A stretch of 46,960 nt of DNA from Candidatus Siliceabacter maunaloa (GTDB taxonomy: Bacteria; Actinomycetota; Thermoleophilia; Solirubrobacterales; Solirubrobacteraceae), in contig JANDLV010000032.1 of assembly GCA_024330185.1 (NCBI GenBank), positions 1 to 46,960 of the forward strand. The letters are read 5' to 3'. The position numbers and the translations under genes are program-made. The notes under the pieces are model-generated. The model did not search any database, was not told the DNA's origin, and saw only the letters and a program-made list of their open reading frames with translations. Of the stretch, positions 12,673 through 42,650 are shown one piece after another; position 1 is the first letter of the stretch; each line of letters starts with the position of its first letter.

Positions 12673-12728
12673 TCGTCGCCGGATCGTCACGCGGACCGGG
12701 GCATTGATCATCTACCGTGGCGCGCCGC

Positions 12729-13592
12729 ATGGCCGACGGCATCCAGGACAAGGTCCGGATCACCCTGGCCCAGGCCTCCTCGATCCTGGGCGCCGTGGAC
12801 GCGAACCTCGAGCGGGCGGGTGCCATGGTGCGCGAGGCGGCCGCCGAGGGCTCGGACCTGGTCGTCTTCCCCGAGCTCTTCCTCACGGGCTACGCGCTGG
12901 GCCAGGTGGTCGAGGATCCCTCGCGCTCGGCGCGCGACGCCGGGCTGCTGGCACTGGGGGCGGCGCAGGAGACGGACGTGGTCGTGGGCTTCGAGGAGGA
13001 CGGCCTGGGCGTGCACACCTACAACTCCGCCGGCTACTACGACAGCGACGGGCTGCGCCACGTGCACCGCAAGCTGTTCCTGCCCACCTACGACATCTTC
13101 GAGGAGCGCAAGTTCTTCTCGCCCGGCCAGTCGCTGCGCGCCTACGAGACGCGCTGGGGGCGGATGGCCACCCTGATCTGCAACGACGCCTGGCAGCCCC
13201 ACCTGGTCTTTCTCGCCATCCAGGACGGCGCGCGGGTGCTCCTCGTGCCCACCAACTCCTCCCAGAGCCGCTTCCCCGAGCGCTATGACTCCCAGACGTA
13301 CTGGAAGGACATCACGACCTTCCTGGCGCGCATGTTCCAGTGCTACGTGGTCTTCGTCAACCGCGTCGGCGAGGAGCCCGGACTGCGCTTCTGGGGCGGC
13401 TCGCACATCGTCGACCCCTGGGGCCGCGTCGTCTGCGAGGCGCCCGAGCACGACGAGGCGCTGATCACCAGCGAGCTCGACCTGGGCCTGGTGCGCAAGC
13501 GTCGCCGCGAGGTCCCCCTCGTCCGCGAGGCGCGCCTGGGGCTGGTGGCCCGCGAGGCGGCGCGCCTGGCCGACGAGGGTGGGGACGTTTAG
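12729..13592 (+). CDS. Carbon-nitrogen hydrolase (nitrilase superfamily)
   Basis: 287 aa from ATG 12729 (GTG 12717 is an alternative adding four residues). The Glu-Lys-Cys triad is visible: Glu in VVFPELFLTGYALG, Lys in HRKLFLPTYDIF, and Cys in MATLICNDAWQPHL. These enzymes hydrolyse nonpeptide C-N bonds of amides or nitriles. The sequence resembles the amidase domain of NAD synthetases and related free-standing amidases more than true nitrilases, but the substrate is unknown. No clear ribosome binding site precedes either start. It converges on dodecin, and the 51 bases between the two stops are filled by a hairpin-forming repeat. Confidence 0.88.
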   Translation: MADGIQDKVRITLAQASSILGAVDANLERAGAMVREAAAEGSDLVVFPELFLTGYALGQVVEDPSRSARDAGLLALGAAQETDVVVGFEEDGLGVHTYNSAGYYDSDGLRHVHRKLFLPTYDIFEERKFFSPGQSLRAYETRWGRMATLICNDAWQPHLVFLAIQDGARVLLVPTNSSQSRFPERYDSQTYWKDITTFLARMFQCYVVFVNRVGEEPGLRFWGGSHIVDPWGRVVCEAPEHDEALITSELDLGLVRKRRREVPLVREARLGLVAREAARLADEGGDV

Positions 13593-13593
13593 G

Positions 13594-13645
13594 TGTGACG
13601 TCGCCGGAGGTCCGAACTTGAGAGGACCGCAGGCGAAAGCGTTCT
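13594..13645. repeat. Structured dispersed repeat, copy 1
   Basis: This fills the gap between the convergent stops of the amidase and dodecin genes. It contains CGCC (13602-13605), GGTCC (13609-13613), a 10-base loop, GGACC (13624-13628) and GGCG (13632-13635), which pair as a hairpin with a 3x3 internal loop. TGTGACGT lies on one side and CAGGCGAAA on the other. It is nearly identical, inverted, to copy 2 at 18727-18781. A bidirectional terminator or REP-like element is possible; there is no T-tract. Confidence 0.7.
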
Positions 13646-13859
13646 ACCGGACGCTCTCGTACTTGAACGAGATCGCCAGGCGCACCCGGTAGCCGGTGAT
13701 GGTGCCGTTCTCGATGGTGACGTCCTGGCGGATGACCTCGGCGATGCGCAGATCGCGCACCGACTTCGCCGCCGTCTCCACCGCCACCTTGGCCGCGGCG
13801 TCCCACGACTCACTGCTGACGCCGATCACTTCGGTGATGCGGTACACGCTTTCGGCCAT
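13644..13859 (-). CDS. Dodecin, flavin-storage protein
   Basis: 71 aa, the usual dodecin length. VYRITEVIGVSSESWDAA at the N-terminus, EVIRQDVTIENGTITGYRVR in the middle and the final ISFKYE follow the dodecin pattern; dodecins form hollow dodecamers that bind flavins (or CoA) and buffer free flavin. ATG 13859 is the natural start. It is transcribed toward the amidase gene and shares its short 3' gap with a structured repeat. Confidence 0.93.
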   Translation of the reverse strand: MAESVYRITEVIGVSSESWDAAAKVAVETAAKSVRDLRIAEVIRQDVTIENGTITGYRVRLAISFKYESVR

Positions 13860-17971: not shown

Positions 17972-18756
17972 GGCACCGGGTGGAAGACGTCGAGGGTGTC
18001 GGCGCGCAGGCCCAGGCGCAGCGTCTCCAGCCCCAGCGCGTCGTCGGGGCGCACGTTGCCCAGGTTCACCTCACCCCCCAGGCGGCGGATGAGCAGCGTC
18101 TGCTGGTGGCGGCGGGGCGCCTCGAAGACCAGCCGCGACGGGTCGATCTCGTGGACGATCTCGTCGATCAGACCGGTGCGCGCCTCGCCGTCACGGCGGT
18201 ACACGCCCGCGTCGCCGCTGGCGCGCCCCTCGCAGACCACGAGCGCAGCGCCCGCGTCCAGTGCGCCACGGATGAGCTCCACCCAGCGGTAGGGGGCCAG
18301 GATCGCGTCGGGGTCCTTCTCCCCCACCTCGGCGTACACGGTGAACCGCTGGGCCAGGCGCTCCACCAGCGCCACCTTGTCGGCGGCGGGCACGGGAACC
18401 ACGCCGCTGGAGACCTCGATGTGCTCGATGCCCAACCCGGCCAGCCAGTCGGCCAGCGCGTCGACCCGGCCGTGCAGCCAGGCCAGCTCCGTCAACGTCC
18501 CTCCGACCATGACCGGCACGCCGTGGCGAGCGTAGACGGCCAGCTTGGCCTCCAGAGCGGGCGTCACGTAGGCCGTCCCGAAGCCCAGGCGCACGAGGTC
18601 CACGAACGGCGCCGCGAGACTGAGGAAGGCGTCGACGTCCGCGGCCGCCAGCCCGGTGTCGATCACGTGGGTCAGGCCGTCGGTGCGAGGCTTGGCCGAG
18701 CGCCGCGGGAGCGGGAGGAACGTCGGGAGAACGGCTTTCGCCTCCGGTCCTCTCAA
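17968..18756 (-). CDS. Phosphosulfolactate synthase-like protein (ComA family)
   Basis: 262 aa. Family features run throughout: LVRLGFGTAYV near residue 60, PVMVGGTLTELAWL near 90, YAEVGEKDPDA near 145, CEGRASGDAG, LVFEAPRRHQQTLLI near 220 and GGEVNLGNVRPDDALGLETL followed by RLGLRADT at the end. ComA adds sulphite to phosphoenolpyruvate to give phosphosulfolactate, the first step of coenzyme M synthesis; bacterial homologues include sporulation and coenzyme M enzymes. I start at TTG 18756, because GGAGG lies 7 bases before it and no ATG or GTG in frame gives a full N-terminus. The start sits inside repeat copy 2. The following gene, an ATP-grasp ligase, overlaps by four bases. Confidence 0.8.
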   Translation of the reverse strand: MRGPEAKAVLPTFLPLPRRSAKPRTDGLTHVIDTGLAAADVDAFLSLAAPFVDLVRLGFGTAYVTPALEAKLAVYARHGVPVMVGGTLTELAWLHGRVDALADWLAGLGIEHIEVSSGVVPVPAADKVALVERLAQRFTVYAEVGEKDPDAILAPYRWVELIRGALDAGAALVVCEGRASGDAGVYRRDGEARTGLIDEIVHEIDPSRLVFEAPRRHQQTLLIRRLGGEVNLGNVRPDDALGLETLRLGLRADTLDVFHPVP

Positions 18757-18781
18757 GTTCGGACCTCCGGCGACGTCACAA
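18727..18781. repeat. Structured dispersed repeat, copy 2
   Basis: Inverted relative to copy 1, with only a few differences over about 50 bases: CGCC, TCC, GGTCC, 10-base loop, GGACC, TCC, GGCG, then ACGTCACA. On the minus strand it contains the TGA stop of the hydrolase gene at one end, and the ribosome binding site and TTG start of the ComA-like gene in its middle. Confidence 0.7.
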
Positions 18782-19450
18782 CTGGTCGCGCAGGAAGTCC
18801 CCCGTGCGGTGCCACGAGCGCAGGGCGGCGGCCTCGTCGTAGGTGCCCAGGCGGTTGGTGTCGTTGAAGAACGCGTGGCCTGCGCCCTCGTAGAACTCGA
18901 ACTCGACCTCCACGCCCGCGTCGCGCATCGAGCGCTCCAGGTCGCGCGCGGCGTCGACGGGCACGAACTCGTCTGCGGTCCCGAAGTGGCCGAGCACCGG
19001 CCCCCGGATGGCCGCGAAGTCCGGCGTGCCATGGGGCATCACGTAGTAATAGGTCACCGTCGCGGCGACCTTGGGGTTGGCCGCCGCTGCCCACACCGAC
19101 AGCCCGCCGCCCAGGCAGAAGCCCAGCGATCCGACGCGCCCGCCCTCGGCGGCCTCGTGCTCGGCGAGGAAGTCGACGGCGCCGCGCATGTCGCGCTCGG
19201 CCTCGTCCATGTTGAGGGCCATCATCTTCTGCTGCGCCTCGTCGGGCTGGATGGTCGTCTCGCCGCGGTAGAGGTCGGGCGCCAGGGCCAGGAAGCCGTT
19301 GGAGGCCAGGCGGTCGCAGACGGAGCGGATGTGGTCCTCGAGGCCCCACCACTCCTGGAGCACCACGATCGGCAGGCCGTGACCGTCCGGCGGGATCGCG
19401 AGGTAGCCGGGGGCGGTCGAGCCGTTGGAGGGGAAGGTCACATCGGGCAT
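18776..19450 (-). CDS. Dienelactone hydrolase family protein
   Basis: 224 aa with an alpha/beta-hydrolase fold. The catalytic triad is Cys112 (SLGFCLGGG), Asp160 (HFGTADEFVP) and His192 (GAGHAFFN), the Cys-Asp-His set typical of dienelactone hydrolases rather than the Ser form of lipases. PIVVLQEWWGLEDHI near residue 30 supplies the usual Glu-Trp-Gly-Leu segment. These enzymes open lactone rings of chlorocatechol-type intermediates, but many family members have other esterase roles. It lies 19 bases before the ComA-like gene and may be co-transcribed with it. Confidence 0.9.
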   Translation of the reverse strand: MPDVTFPSNGSTAPGYLAIPPDGHGLPIVVLQEWWGLEDHIRSVCDRLASNGFLALAPDLYRGETTIQPDEAQQKMMALNMDEAERDMRGAVDFLAEHEAAEGGRVGSLGFCLGGGLSVWAAAANPKVAATVTYYYVMPHGTPDFAAIRGPVLGHFGTADEFVPVDAARDLERSMRDAGVEVEFEFYEGAGHAFFNDTNRLGTYDEAAALRSWHRTGDFLRDQL

Positions 19451-19944: not shown

Positions 19945-20166
19945 TCAGTCGCCCTCGGCGATGGGCGGGAACTCGCCCGGCACCCGCCGGCGGCGGCGGT
20001 CGCGCGTGGTGCGCTGCTCGTGCTGCGCGGGCATGGCCTCGCCACCGCGCCGCTCCGCCGTGCGCCGGTCCACGATCACCTCGACATCGGGATCGTCGGC
20101 GTAGTGGGCCACGAGCTTGTCGTAGAGCTCGTCGGCCAGCGCGGTGGGAACGACGCAGTAGATCAT
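19945..20166 (-). CDS. Small conserved hypothetical protein
   Basis: 73 aa starting MIYCVVPTALADELYDKLVA and continuing with DDPDVEVIVDRRTAERR. The first 40 residues look like a compact beta-alpha-beta unit. The tail is strongly basic (RTTRDRRRRR). I recognise the N-terminal pattern as a recurrent actinobacterial small protein without a function. It is 12 bases upstream of the RNase HI gene, and its ATG begins just beyond repeat copy 3. Confidence 0.7.
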   Translation of the reverse strand: MIYCVVPTALADELYDKLVAHYADDPDVEVIVDRRTAERRGGEAMPAQHEQRTTRDRRRRRVPGEFPPIAEGD

Positions 20167-20170
20167 GGAA

Positions 20171-20240
20171 AGCGGATTTCGCCTGACGGTGGCCGCAAGC
20201 GACGACCTACGGCGACGTTACACGGCCGGCAGGCGAAAGC
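20171..20240. repeat. Structured dispersed repeat, copy 3, with terminal inverted repeats
   Basis: It shares TTTCGCC...ACCTACGGCGACGTTACA with copy 4 but has a weaker inner stem. The whole 62-base unit is bounded by perfect 9-bp inverted repeats, TTTCGCCTG (20177-20185) and CAGGCGAAA (20230-20238). It lies downstream of the zinc-ribbon gene and next to a tandem repeat. Confidence 0.55.
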
Positions 20241-20288
20241 GGCCTCCCCAAGGATAGCTCCGAAAGCGGTCTCTCGAAGGATAGCTCC
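20235..20288. repeat. 27-bp tandem duplication
   Basis: Two adjacent 27-base units (20235-20261 and 20262-20288) agree at 24 positions; the shared ends are GAAAGCGG and AAGGATAGCTCC. They fill the space between the zinc-ribbon gene stop and repeat copy 3 and share the CGAAAGCG element with that repeat family. Confidence 0.75.
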
Positions 20289-20314
20289 GACCTGTGGGAC
20301 CGTCCACAGCGCGT

Positions 20315-21265
20315 TCACGCCAGTGCCAGCGCGCCGCGGTCGTCGGCCTCGACGTTGGCCTCGCGCTCGCGGGGCTCGAGCTCGTCGAGCTCGGCGCCCT
20401 GGGCCACCACGCGCACACCGGCCGCCTCGTCGGCCAGGTCGACCTCGTAGCGATACCAGCACAGCTCCCAGGCGACCGCGATGACCACAATGCTGCCCTC
20501 GGTGCCCGACGGGTGGGCGGCCACCATCGGCTCACCCAGGGAACGGGCCACGCCGGCCACCGTGCGCGGGTGGCCGCTTTGGTTGAAGACCTCCAGCGCC
20601 CGGCTGAGCTTCAGGCTCGCGTTGGTGGGCACGGCGTGCACGTGGCGCTGCGCGCGCGGCGGCTCGGGGGCGGGCTCGCCCCGGCGCACCCGGCGGCGCT
20701 CGCGCGGATGCGCAGCCTCCCCGACCGGCGGGGCGGGTTCATCGGGCAGCGGCTCCTCGGGGGCCCACTCCGCGGGGAGCGCGTCATCGTGGGCGTGCTC
20801 GTGGGCGGCGGGCAGACCGGGGGCGTCCTGCGCGACCGCCGCCGGGTCCTCCCAGCCGGCGTCCTCGGGGACGGGCTCGCCGGCCCAGGCATCGGCCGGG
20901 TGGCCGTGGTGGTCGGGGCCCCAGTCGGGCTCCTGGGTCCATACGGCTGCGCCGTCGTCGCGGCGGGGACGCTGTGCGCGCACCTCTCCCGGGCGTTCGC
21001 GGGGGGGCTCGCCGTTGTCGCCCTGACGGCGCAGGCGACCCAGGAACGAGCGCCGCCCGCGGCCGCCCGCGCTGCGTACGCCCACATCGTCGGCGCCCTC
21101 GCGGATCCAGCCCTCGTTGGCCGCCCGGCCGGTGCACAGCTCACAGACCAGGCGCCGCGACCCGCCGGCGACGAAGGGATCGGCCTTCTCGCCGCGCAGC
21201 AGGGTGCGACCGCACACGTCGCAGGCCAGGACGGCGTGGCTGGTCGTGATCGACTTGCGGGACAT
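20315..21265 (-). CDS. Zinc-ribbon protein with a disordered linker
   Basis: 316 aa. Cys15-x2-Cys18 (CDVCGRTLLRGEKADPF) and Cys41-x2-Cys44 (LVCELCTGRA) form a treble-clef or zinc-ribbon site at the N-terminus. Residues about 60-215 are of low complexity, rich in Pro, Glu, Ala and Arg, probably disordered. The last 100 residues are a folded domain: SLKLSRALEVFNQSGHPRTV, then GSIVVIAVAWELCWYRYEVD, containing a predicted helix-turn and a beta hairpin. I know of no function; a nucleic-acid-binding adaptor is possible. The start ATG at 21265 gives the zinc site close to the N-terminus. Confidence 0.78.
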   Translation of the reverse strand: MSRKSITTSHAVLACDVCGRTLLRGEKADPFVAGGSRRLVCELCTGRAANEGWIREGADDVGVRSAGGRGRRSFLGRLRRQGDNGEPPRERPGEVRAQRPRRDDGAAVWTQEPDWGPDHHGHPADAWAGEPVPEDAGWEDPAAVAQDAPGLPAAHEHAHDDALPAEWAPEEPLPDEPAPPVGEAAHPRERRRVRRGEPAPEPPRAQRHVHAVPTNASLKLSRALEVFNQSGHPRTVAGVARSLGEPMVAAHPSGTEGSIVVIAVAWELCWYRYEVDLADEAAGVRVVAQGAELDELEPREREANVEADDRGALALA

Positions 21266-41551: not shown

Positions 41552-41567
41552 GGGTCCACAGTAAACC

Positions 41568-41647
41568 GTTTCGCCTTGAGGTCATCGGGACCGAGGACCT
41601 ACGGCGACGTCACACATCGCAAGCGAGGATCGAAAGGCGACGTCACG
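41568..41647. repeat. Structured dispersed repeat, copy 4
   Basis: CGCC (41572-41575), TTG, AGGTC (41579-41583), 12-base loop, GACCT (41596-41600), AC, GGCG (41603-41606), then ACGTCACA. The inner stem differs from GGTCC/GGACC of copies 1-2, yet still pairs. A second ACGTCAC-type box follows at 41634-41645; on the minus strand it holds the TGA stop of ftsY. Confidence 0.65.
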
Positions 41648-42650
41648 GGGCGATGAGGGCCCGCGCGAAGTCGTCGGCGTCGAAGGGGCGCAGGTCCTCC
41701 AGCGCCTCCCCCACCCCGATGAGCTTCACGGGGATGCCCAGCTCGCCGGCGATGGCCAGCGCGATGCCGCCCTTGGCCGTGCCGTCCAGCTTGGTGAGCA
41801 CGACGCCGTCCACGGGGACGGCCCGGGAGAAGAGCTTGGCCTGGCGCAGGCCGTTCTGACCCGTGGTGGCGTCGACGGTGAGCAGCGTCTCGTGGGGAGC
41901 CGCGTCGAGCTGCTTGCCGATGACCCGGCGGATCTTGGTCAGCTCGTCCATGAGGTGGTCCTGGGTGTGCAGGCGCCCGGCGGTATCGATGATGACCACG
42001 TCCGCGCCCTGCTCGCGCCCGCGGCGCACCGCCTCGAAGGCCACCGAGCCGGGGTCGGCGCCCTCGCGGCCGGTGACGATCTCGCAGCCGGCGCGCTGCG
42101 CCCAGCCCTGGAGCTGCTCCACGGCGGCGGCGCGGAAGGTGTCGGCGGCGCCCAGGATCACCGTGCGGCCCAGCTCGCGCCGGAGGTGCCAGGCCAGCTT
42201 GCCGATGGTGGTCGTCTTGCCGGTGCCGTTGACGCCCACGGCCATGATCACCGTCGGCTTCGGGGAGAGATCGATGCGAACAGGGCTTTCGGTCCGGGCG
42301 ATGCCGGCCAGCAGCTCGGTCAGTCGGGCGCTGAGCGCCTCGCCGCCCTCCAGCCCGCCGTCCCGGGCCTCCTGCTCGAGCTGAGCTACGACCTTCGCCG
42401 TCGTGGAGGCGCCGACGTCGGCCATGATCAGCGCCTCCTCCAGGCGCTCCCAGGTGGCCTCGTCGACGGTCTCGAACAGGGTGGCCTGGATCTCGGCGCC
42501 CAGGGCCTGGCGGGTCTTGGAGAGGTTCTCGCGCAGCCGGCGGAAGAAGCGCCCGCGCCCACGCCCGCCCTCCTGCTCCTCGCCGCCGGCGTTGGCCGGA
42601 GGAGCCTCGCCGTCGGGCAGCACGAAGAGATCGGTCCACTCGCGGGGCAT
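41643..42650 (-). CDS. ftsY: Signal recognition particle receptor FtsY
   Basis: 335 aa. The N domain runs from FFRRLRENLSKTRQALG near 35, and the GTPase has GVNGTGKTTTIGKLAWHLRR near 135, DTAGRLHTQDHLMDEL near 225 and TKLDGTAKGGIALAI near 285. An acidic N-terminal extension of about 30 residues is short, as in Gram-positive FtsY. ATG 42650 opens MPREWTDLFVLPDG. It targets SRP-ribosome complexes to the membrane with Ffh. Confidence 0.95.
   Translation of the reverse strand: MPREWTDLFVLPDGEAPPANAGGEEQEGGRGRGRFFRRLRENLSKTRQALGAEIQATLFETVDEATWERLEEALIMADVGASTTAKVVAQLEQEARDGGLEGGEALSARLTELLAGIARTESPVRIDLSPKPTVIMAVGVNGTGKTTTIGKLAWHLRRELGRTVILGAADTFRAAAVEQLQGWAQRAGCEIVTGREGADPGSVAFEAVRRGREQGADVVIIDTAGRLHTQDHLMDELTKIRRVIGKQLDAAPHETLLTVDATTGQNGLRQAKLFSRAVPVDGVVLTKLDGTAKGGIALAIAGELGIPVKLIGVGEALEDLRPFDADDFARALIAP

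Follow-up and report, generated by a model that had tools for sequence, protein, structure and literature searches.

In this article, I describe a family of short palindromic repeats in Candidatus Siliceabacter maunaloa (Solirubrobacteraceae), recognized through four copies in a 46,960-nucleotide stretch of its DNA (contig JANDLV010000032.1 of assembly GCA_024330185.1; hereafter the window, meaning the whole stretch that was analysed, which is contig 47 of a 3.79 Mb genome in 120 contigs). The explanation I favor, and consider probable, is a non-autonomous palindromic family of the Solirubrobacteraceae resembling the repetitive extragenic palindromes (REPs), mobile at first and then serving as an mRNA hairpin close to the stop codon. 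The family is dispersed, spreads within the genome and grows into head-to-tail arrays; its heads sit on a stop codon or within about 10 nt of one, in sense orientation, and carry TGA or TAA; and both the pairing and the purine-rich internal loops are kept on the gene-sense strand. Mobility is well supported, while an effect on expression is suggested by position and by analogy with a report on E. coli REPs taken up below. The original prediction, made from the window alone, had seen four structured copies, which are real (three were viewed from the opposite strand), and its proposal of a selected structure or REP-like element is borne out by copy number and sense gene-end placement; what it missed is that many copies are recent insertions, their sites being empty in a relative, and that the repeat itself carries the stop codon.

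Element anatomy and pairing

All four window copies were confirmed and, in the sense of the upstream gene, read TRACGTCGCCG, a hairpin and AGGCGAAA. The anatomy was defined from 19 own-genome copies (alignment A1) and 20 more diverse copies aligned without gaps (A4), giving the core TRACGTCG(N)CC-GNA-hairpin-GNA-GG(N)CGAAA. The element measures about 52-54 nt and begins with TRA (the stop), followed by CG, the stem TCG(N)CC, GNA, an inner stem of up to eight pairs and a loop that is usually CTTG; the 3' half consists of the returning inner stem, GNA, GG(N)CGA, AA and a loosely kept tail. The stem therefore starts two bases past the built-in stop codon, the two GNA form a symmetric internal loop, and CCGNAGG flanks the inner hairpin on both sides (the copy at C24:11334 resembles a deletion between these two repeats). 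Directly after TRA, both alignments have CGTC (sometimes CATC), the T and C of which pair with the CGA of CGAAA in 20/20 rows, these pairs being invariant.

The original prediction had also inferred a compensatory stem from copies 1 and 2 against copy 4, a comparison that turned out to be partly a register shift, and it was the addition of relatives that brought out covariation: changes on both sides occur in 7 of 14 pairs of A4, whose covariation score is reached by 0 of 500 shuffles, and in 10 of 14 pairs of a set of 65 distinct rows whose alignment was fitted to the model (A5). Read on the gene-sense strand, the relatives have 103 G.A against 13 U.C and 13 G.U against 3 A.C, which makes that strand the better candidate for the one that folds. 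RNA folds of five sense-strand copies were 1.4 to 2.5 standard deviations better than shuffles and 0.3 to 2.6 kcal/mol below their antisense counterparts, each result being weak alone. No Rfam family exceeded its gathering score at the copies, the only window matches being three tRNAs.

Copy number and spread among genomes

With at most 2 mismatches allowed, the 13-mer TGTGACGTCGCCG has 213+216 genomic occurrences, compared with 71+70 for a reversed control. The covariance-model scan that the original prediction had called for found far more than its four copies: model R1 returned 108 own-genome matches at E<=0.01 (53 on the plus and 55 on the minus strand), including the 19 training copies, which match by construction, and since scoring covered just 150 of the 9346 first-look candidates, 108 is a lower bound. 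These matches form 65 clusters, 25 of them with more than one match (one only through self-overlap); the multi-match clusters are head-to-tail and, with two self-overlaps set aside, 0/65 hold inverted doublets. The 74 matches that span the whole model make up 64 arrays, 62 of which have flanks.

The family is nearly confined to the Solirubrobacteraceae. One search of 41 genomes gave matches in 14, with 98 in the own genome, 16 in the same genus and 1-10 in the others, and model R2 at E<=1e-4 matched 26 of 399 class genomes, of which 21 belong to the own family. Among the five outside it, only G389 (same order, other family) has a strong match, at L114:562-615 with an E of 4.7e-17, attributable either to transfer or to a mis-binned contig. 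At phylum level, 5 of 396 genomes match, four of them in the own family. An exact pattern run against a named genome collection found 42 loci, one from Minicystis rosea and 41 from records labeled Solirubrobacteraceae, Solirubrobacter, Solirubrobacterales, Svornostia abyssi or 'Actinomycetota SZAS-16', and Svornostia abyssi J379 is a named strain with a complete chromosome that carries the repeat. Viral contigs gave 0 pattern matches, and plasmids and phages no match to copy 2, on which grounds viral or plasmid spread was rejected. The literature searched, whose coverage leaves out most subscription journals, holds no account of this repeat family.

Filled and empty sites in relatives

Orthologous gene ends in the same-genus genome G001 were located by a joined-peptide search that matched 27 sites, two of them uninformative (C33:67808, a short locus, and C77:60626, where the wrong end was compared); adding atpG and ftsY to the other 25 gives 27 informative sites. 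The labels atpG, atpD and groEL are ones I take from reading the proteins, not from a family scan. Five sites are shared (C33:66624, C42:14929, C99:49612, atpG and ftsY), one has G001 copies in the other orientation (C61:8710) and 21 are absent, counting as absent C24:76930, where the machine call of 'present' was a coding match 5' of the stop. The sites of window copies 1 and 2 are empty in G001; at copy 2, the own genome reads CAG TTG TGA[CGTCG...GTTCTC]CCGACGTTCC and G001 reads CAG CTC TGA CGCCCGACTTCC, with the same C-terminus. By my own tally, loop type GAACTT is shared with G001 at 0/16 sites and other loops at 5/11, and it is these empty sites, together with a loop subfamily found only at such sites, that establish spread within the genome. 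Across the 10 sites where the head's TRA is the stop (offset zero) and the copy is absent in G001, the C-terminus is of equal length in four, one codon off in four and four codons off in two.

Among the 30 family genomes for which atpG loci were given (54 of 61 genomes matched), 10 are filled, as is G009 outside those 30, and same-genus pairs differ, G022 being filled and G209 empty, G372 filled and G333 empty, with the downstream bases kept. The atpG-atpD junction loci are L171-L200. At ftsY, only G000 and G001 are filled among 12 gene ends readable by motif, 17 of 30 loci having gone unread and one having been misread.

Placement at stop codons

The position check proposed with the original prediction showed that 46 of the 62 flanked arrays lie at the 3' end of a gene on their own strand, while about five copies fall within coding regions. 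In 29 arrays the first head's TRA (TGA or TAA) is the same-strand gene's stop codon, 12 start at most 10 nt after the stop, 5 have it within the element, 3 are 11-130 nt past it and 13 are placed otherwise (inside coding regions, antisense near start codons or, for a few, far from called genes), whereas just 3.8% of intergenic insertion points fall 0-10 nt after a same-strand stop. Likewise, the 41 named loci (Minicystis left out) comprise 12 exact cases, 16 in which the head follows the stop by 3-13 nt, one at 23 nt, four later tandem units and eight with no same-strand stop, four of these eight being inside called genes. The stops at 25 offset-zero arrays are 15 TGA, 9 TAA and 1 TAG, compared with 222 TGA, 11 TAA and 108 TAG at 341 other genes (Fisher p 7e-7 for TAA), and this excess of TAA indicates that the stop comes with the repeat. 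Recoding of the stop codon was rejected by reasoning only, TGA and TAA both being used at the same place.

Given a median 3' gap of 41 nt, the near absence of arrays 11-130 nt after stops (3 of 62) argues against simple tolerance alone as the cause of this placement, which may reflect either aimed insertion or selection for position. It is somewhat unlikely that hairpin integration is itself aimed at stop codons, each copy bringing its own stop and landing within about one codon of the native one; if true, the inserting enzyme would differ from the REP-associated tyrosine transposases (RAYTs) and would have to sense translation, at the RNA level, or seek out stops in some other way, and protein length would mostly be unchanged by insertion.

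Weighing the explanations

On the favored explanation, a mobile repeat that then serves as a stop-proximal hairpin, the element would move as a hairpin handled by some enzyme and, after insertion, would be transcribed first thing past the stop codon. A stem starting two bases past the stop would sit in the ribosome entry channel at termination, and should therefore slow the last ribosome and lower or tune the output of the upstream gene; the hairpin should also block 3' exonucleases and 3' decay.

Several observations weigh against this explanation. There is no readable target-site duplication, and Y1_Tnp (RAYT/IS200), the only transposase sought, is absent from the own genome and from most carriers, including G001, G010, G018, G114, G240 and G267. 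With 5/27 sites shared with G001 and atpG filled in 10/30 genomes, some copies are old and may be kept by selection. The G.U to A.C asymmetry within the own genome is weak (13 vs 8) and comes from related rows. Furthermore, the exact-stop class is partly circular, any in-frame TRA ending an open reading frame (ORF), and this is answered by the C-terminus comparison at 10 sites only.

As to the mover, Y1_Tnp occurs in 16 of 81 family genomes, of which G003, G008 and G317 had element matches, the other comparable Y1_Tnp genomes having none listed, and RAYT/IS200 was rejected on its absence from the own genome and most carriers. A reverse transcriptase was likewise set aside for want of a consistent link, one being found in the own genome and none in carriers such as G004, G009, G018, G114, G240 and G267. 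A RAYT-driven REP/REPIN family of the GTAG type, to which the REP-like size and placement and a GNAG tetranucleotide at the base of the inner hairpin might point, is highly improbable, with 0/65 clusters holding inverted doublets and no Y1_Tnp in the own genome or listed carriers (in assemblies that are incomplete). Equally improbable is a double-stranded DNA site for a bound protein, such as a nucleoid or supercoiling factor; the ACGTCG and CGAAA blocks are invariant and E. coli REPs are said, in the available part of PMC3733652, to be gyrase targets, but a duplex site would have no need of hairpin covariation with G.A and G.U features on one strand, or of a sense orientation at stops.

A vertically inherited, non-mobile functional RNA of the 3' untranslated region, selected at stops, would fit the occupied atpG ends, the narrow distance to the stop and the paired changes between own genome and G001 at the shared site C33:66624, but it is improbable and largely refuted by the 21/27 sites empty in G001. 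Also against it are the most frequent loop type, which is never shared with G001, the in-frame copies inside genes, and match numbers that in one search of relatives ranged from 98 down to 0. The terminator that the original prediction had listed among its options, in which the hairpin past the stop would end transcription of the upstream gene, is quite improbable. The position right after stops, the GC-rich hairpin and the pyrimidine-rich tail of many own copies (for example CCGTTCTC) speak for it, but most tails lack a U-tract, T runs being seen in just a few of the relatives' atpG copies, the element occurs inside an operon, between atpG and atpD, groEL-like genes (C55:50163, L070, L079) have a separate GC hairpin after the element, the next gene is codirectional in 36/69 cases and some copies lie within coding regions.

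Relation to known repeats

As a short palindrome in many dispersed copies mainly 3' of genes, the family is a REP in the broad sense, but an unusual one in its fixed orientation, head-to-tail arrays, built-in stop and lack of a RAYT-type transposase in the genome. A close likeness is to the CGTC-tagged palindromic repeats, which include Neisseria dRS3 and Rickettsia RPE-4/RPE-6, as described in the available part of Di Nocera et al. (2013; PMC3733652): both have CGTC near one end and a 4-nt loop, lie mostly 3' of genes with some in frame inside them, are very unevenly distributed among relatives and have no dedicated transposase (only Y1_Tnp having been sought here). However, the same part of that survey gives the CGTC repeats an unpaired tag, an 8-9 bp stem starting AT, a CCA tail and mostly inverted (HH) doublets with negligible head-to-tail ones, whereas here two of the four tag bases are paired, the element is about 52-54 nt with a GNA/GNA loop, a built-in stop codon and no CCA, and arrays are head-to-tail only; nor are the Actinomycetota among the five phyla it lists. 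GTAG REPs and REPINs with RAYT are also short palindromes next to stop codons, their GTAG termini often supplying a TAG stop (PMC3733652, same part), but here there is no Y1_Tnp, there are no REPIN doublets and the stop is TGA or TAA. Rickettsia palindromic elements (RPE) resemble the family in being in-frame palindromic inserts, in their case in conserved proteins, but in-gene copies are a minority here and gene ends dominate.

REP-like repeats near stops are known; what differs here is a stop that the repeat itself contains, at a set distance from the stem. E. coli REPs at most 15 nt from the stop are reported to stall ribosomes and lower translation (Liang, Rudd, Deutscher 2015, as cited in the available part of PMC12306157), and about 11% of E. 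coli REPs lie that close (RepRanger, PMC12306157), compared with 46/62 arrays at a gene end here; a stop-proximal hairpin is common to both, and a translational role may be as well. A built-in stop at a fixed stem distance makes the idea that stop-proximal hairpins tune translation testable by comparing orthologous genes that naturally have or lack the element, and a RAYT-less repeat with recent insertions offers a clean case for finding the mover of CGTC-like palindromes, which the available part of the 2013 survey did not settle (PMC3733652).

Window copies and flanking genes

Genes were called with a program written for the analysis, trained on the fetched sequence and converging in a few rounds, which gave 51 window genes.

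12717..13592, plus strand: carbon-nitrogen hydrolase gene 5' of copy 1 (gene caller; Pfam CN_hydrolase)
13596..13647, plus strand: copy 1, full element, TGACGTCG ... GGCGAAAGCGTTCT
18727..18778, minus strand: copy 2, full element
18776..19450, minus strand: dienelactone hydrolase family gene 5' of copy 2 (gene caller; Pfam DLH)
20168..20220, minus strand: copy 3, full element, beginning TAACGTCG, directly 5' of ORF 19945-20166 (minus strand)
20221..20314, minus strand: degenerate, partly inverted unit-like stretch from the stop at 20315 to copy 3 (from sequence; no model score)
20315..21265, minus strand: gene 5' of copy 3 (gene caller; no Pfam match at E 1e-5)
41560..41612, minus strand: copy 4, full element, second unit of a head-to-tail pair 3' of ftsY
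41613..41645, minus strand: first unit of that pair, head and degenerate hairpin without tail, its TGA (41645-41643) being the ftsY stop
41643..42650, minus strand: ftsY-like gene (SRP54-type GTPase) 5' of copy 4 (gene caller; ftsY label via Pfam)

The claim that each copy follows a stop within a few bases holds for copies 1, 2 and 4 and fails for copy 3, which lies 95 nt beyond the nearest called stop (20315). The head of copy 1 is 3 nt past the TAG (13590-13592) of the carbon-nitrogen hydrolase gene and its final bases overlap the end of a convergent ORF, and the dienelactone-hydrolase-like gene has the TGA of copy 2 (18778-18776) as its stop. The stretch at 20221-20314 contains an inverted half-element AGGCGAAAGCGG on the plus strand and a tandem GGATAGCTCCGA motif, and may be what remains of an older unit or belong to a different repeat family.

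Copies inside genes and antisense copies

Only about five copies lie inside coding regions, which by the gene calls make up about 89% of the sampled sequence. In an Lhr-type helicase gene (L098:8598-8651; Pfam WH_Lhr, DEAD), an in-frame 54-nt element sits in the linker that joins the ATP-binding motif to the conserved motif after it; in G001, G267 and G004 this linker is different. An RNase R-like gene (L024; own C42:14929-15061) holds three in-frame 39-nt units between RNB and S1 (Pfam), where G001 has one and G004 none. The match at C77:60626 was at first viewed as a chance coding match, a view put in doubt by its tail and by a reading frame that runs on through an FAD oxidoreductase, which suggest that it may be an in-frame insertion. 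One antisense array lies within a glycosyltransferase gene.

Antisense copies also adjoin start codons at C13:47749, C46:47296 and C73:21908; antisense heads lie a few nt from the start codon at L105:5750-5803, L097:7297-7348 and L092:7909-7960, and also at L252 (G001), and genes so arranged would lack the usual ribosome-binding site. In Svornostia abyssi (L141:4117-4159), the head abuts what appears, read by eye, to be the 5' end of a tRNA on the other strand.
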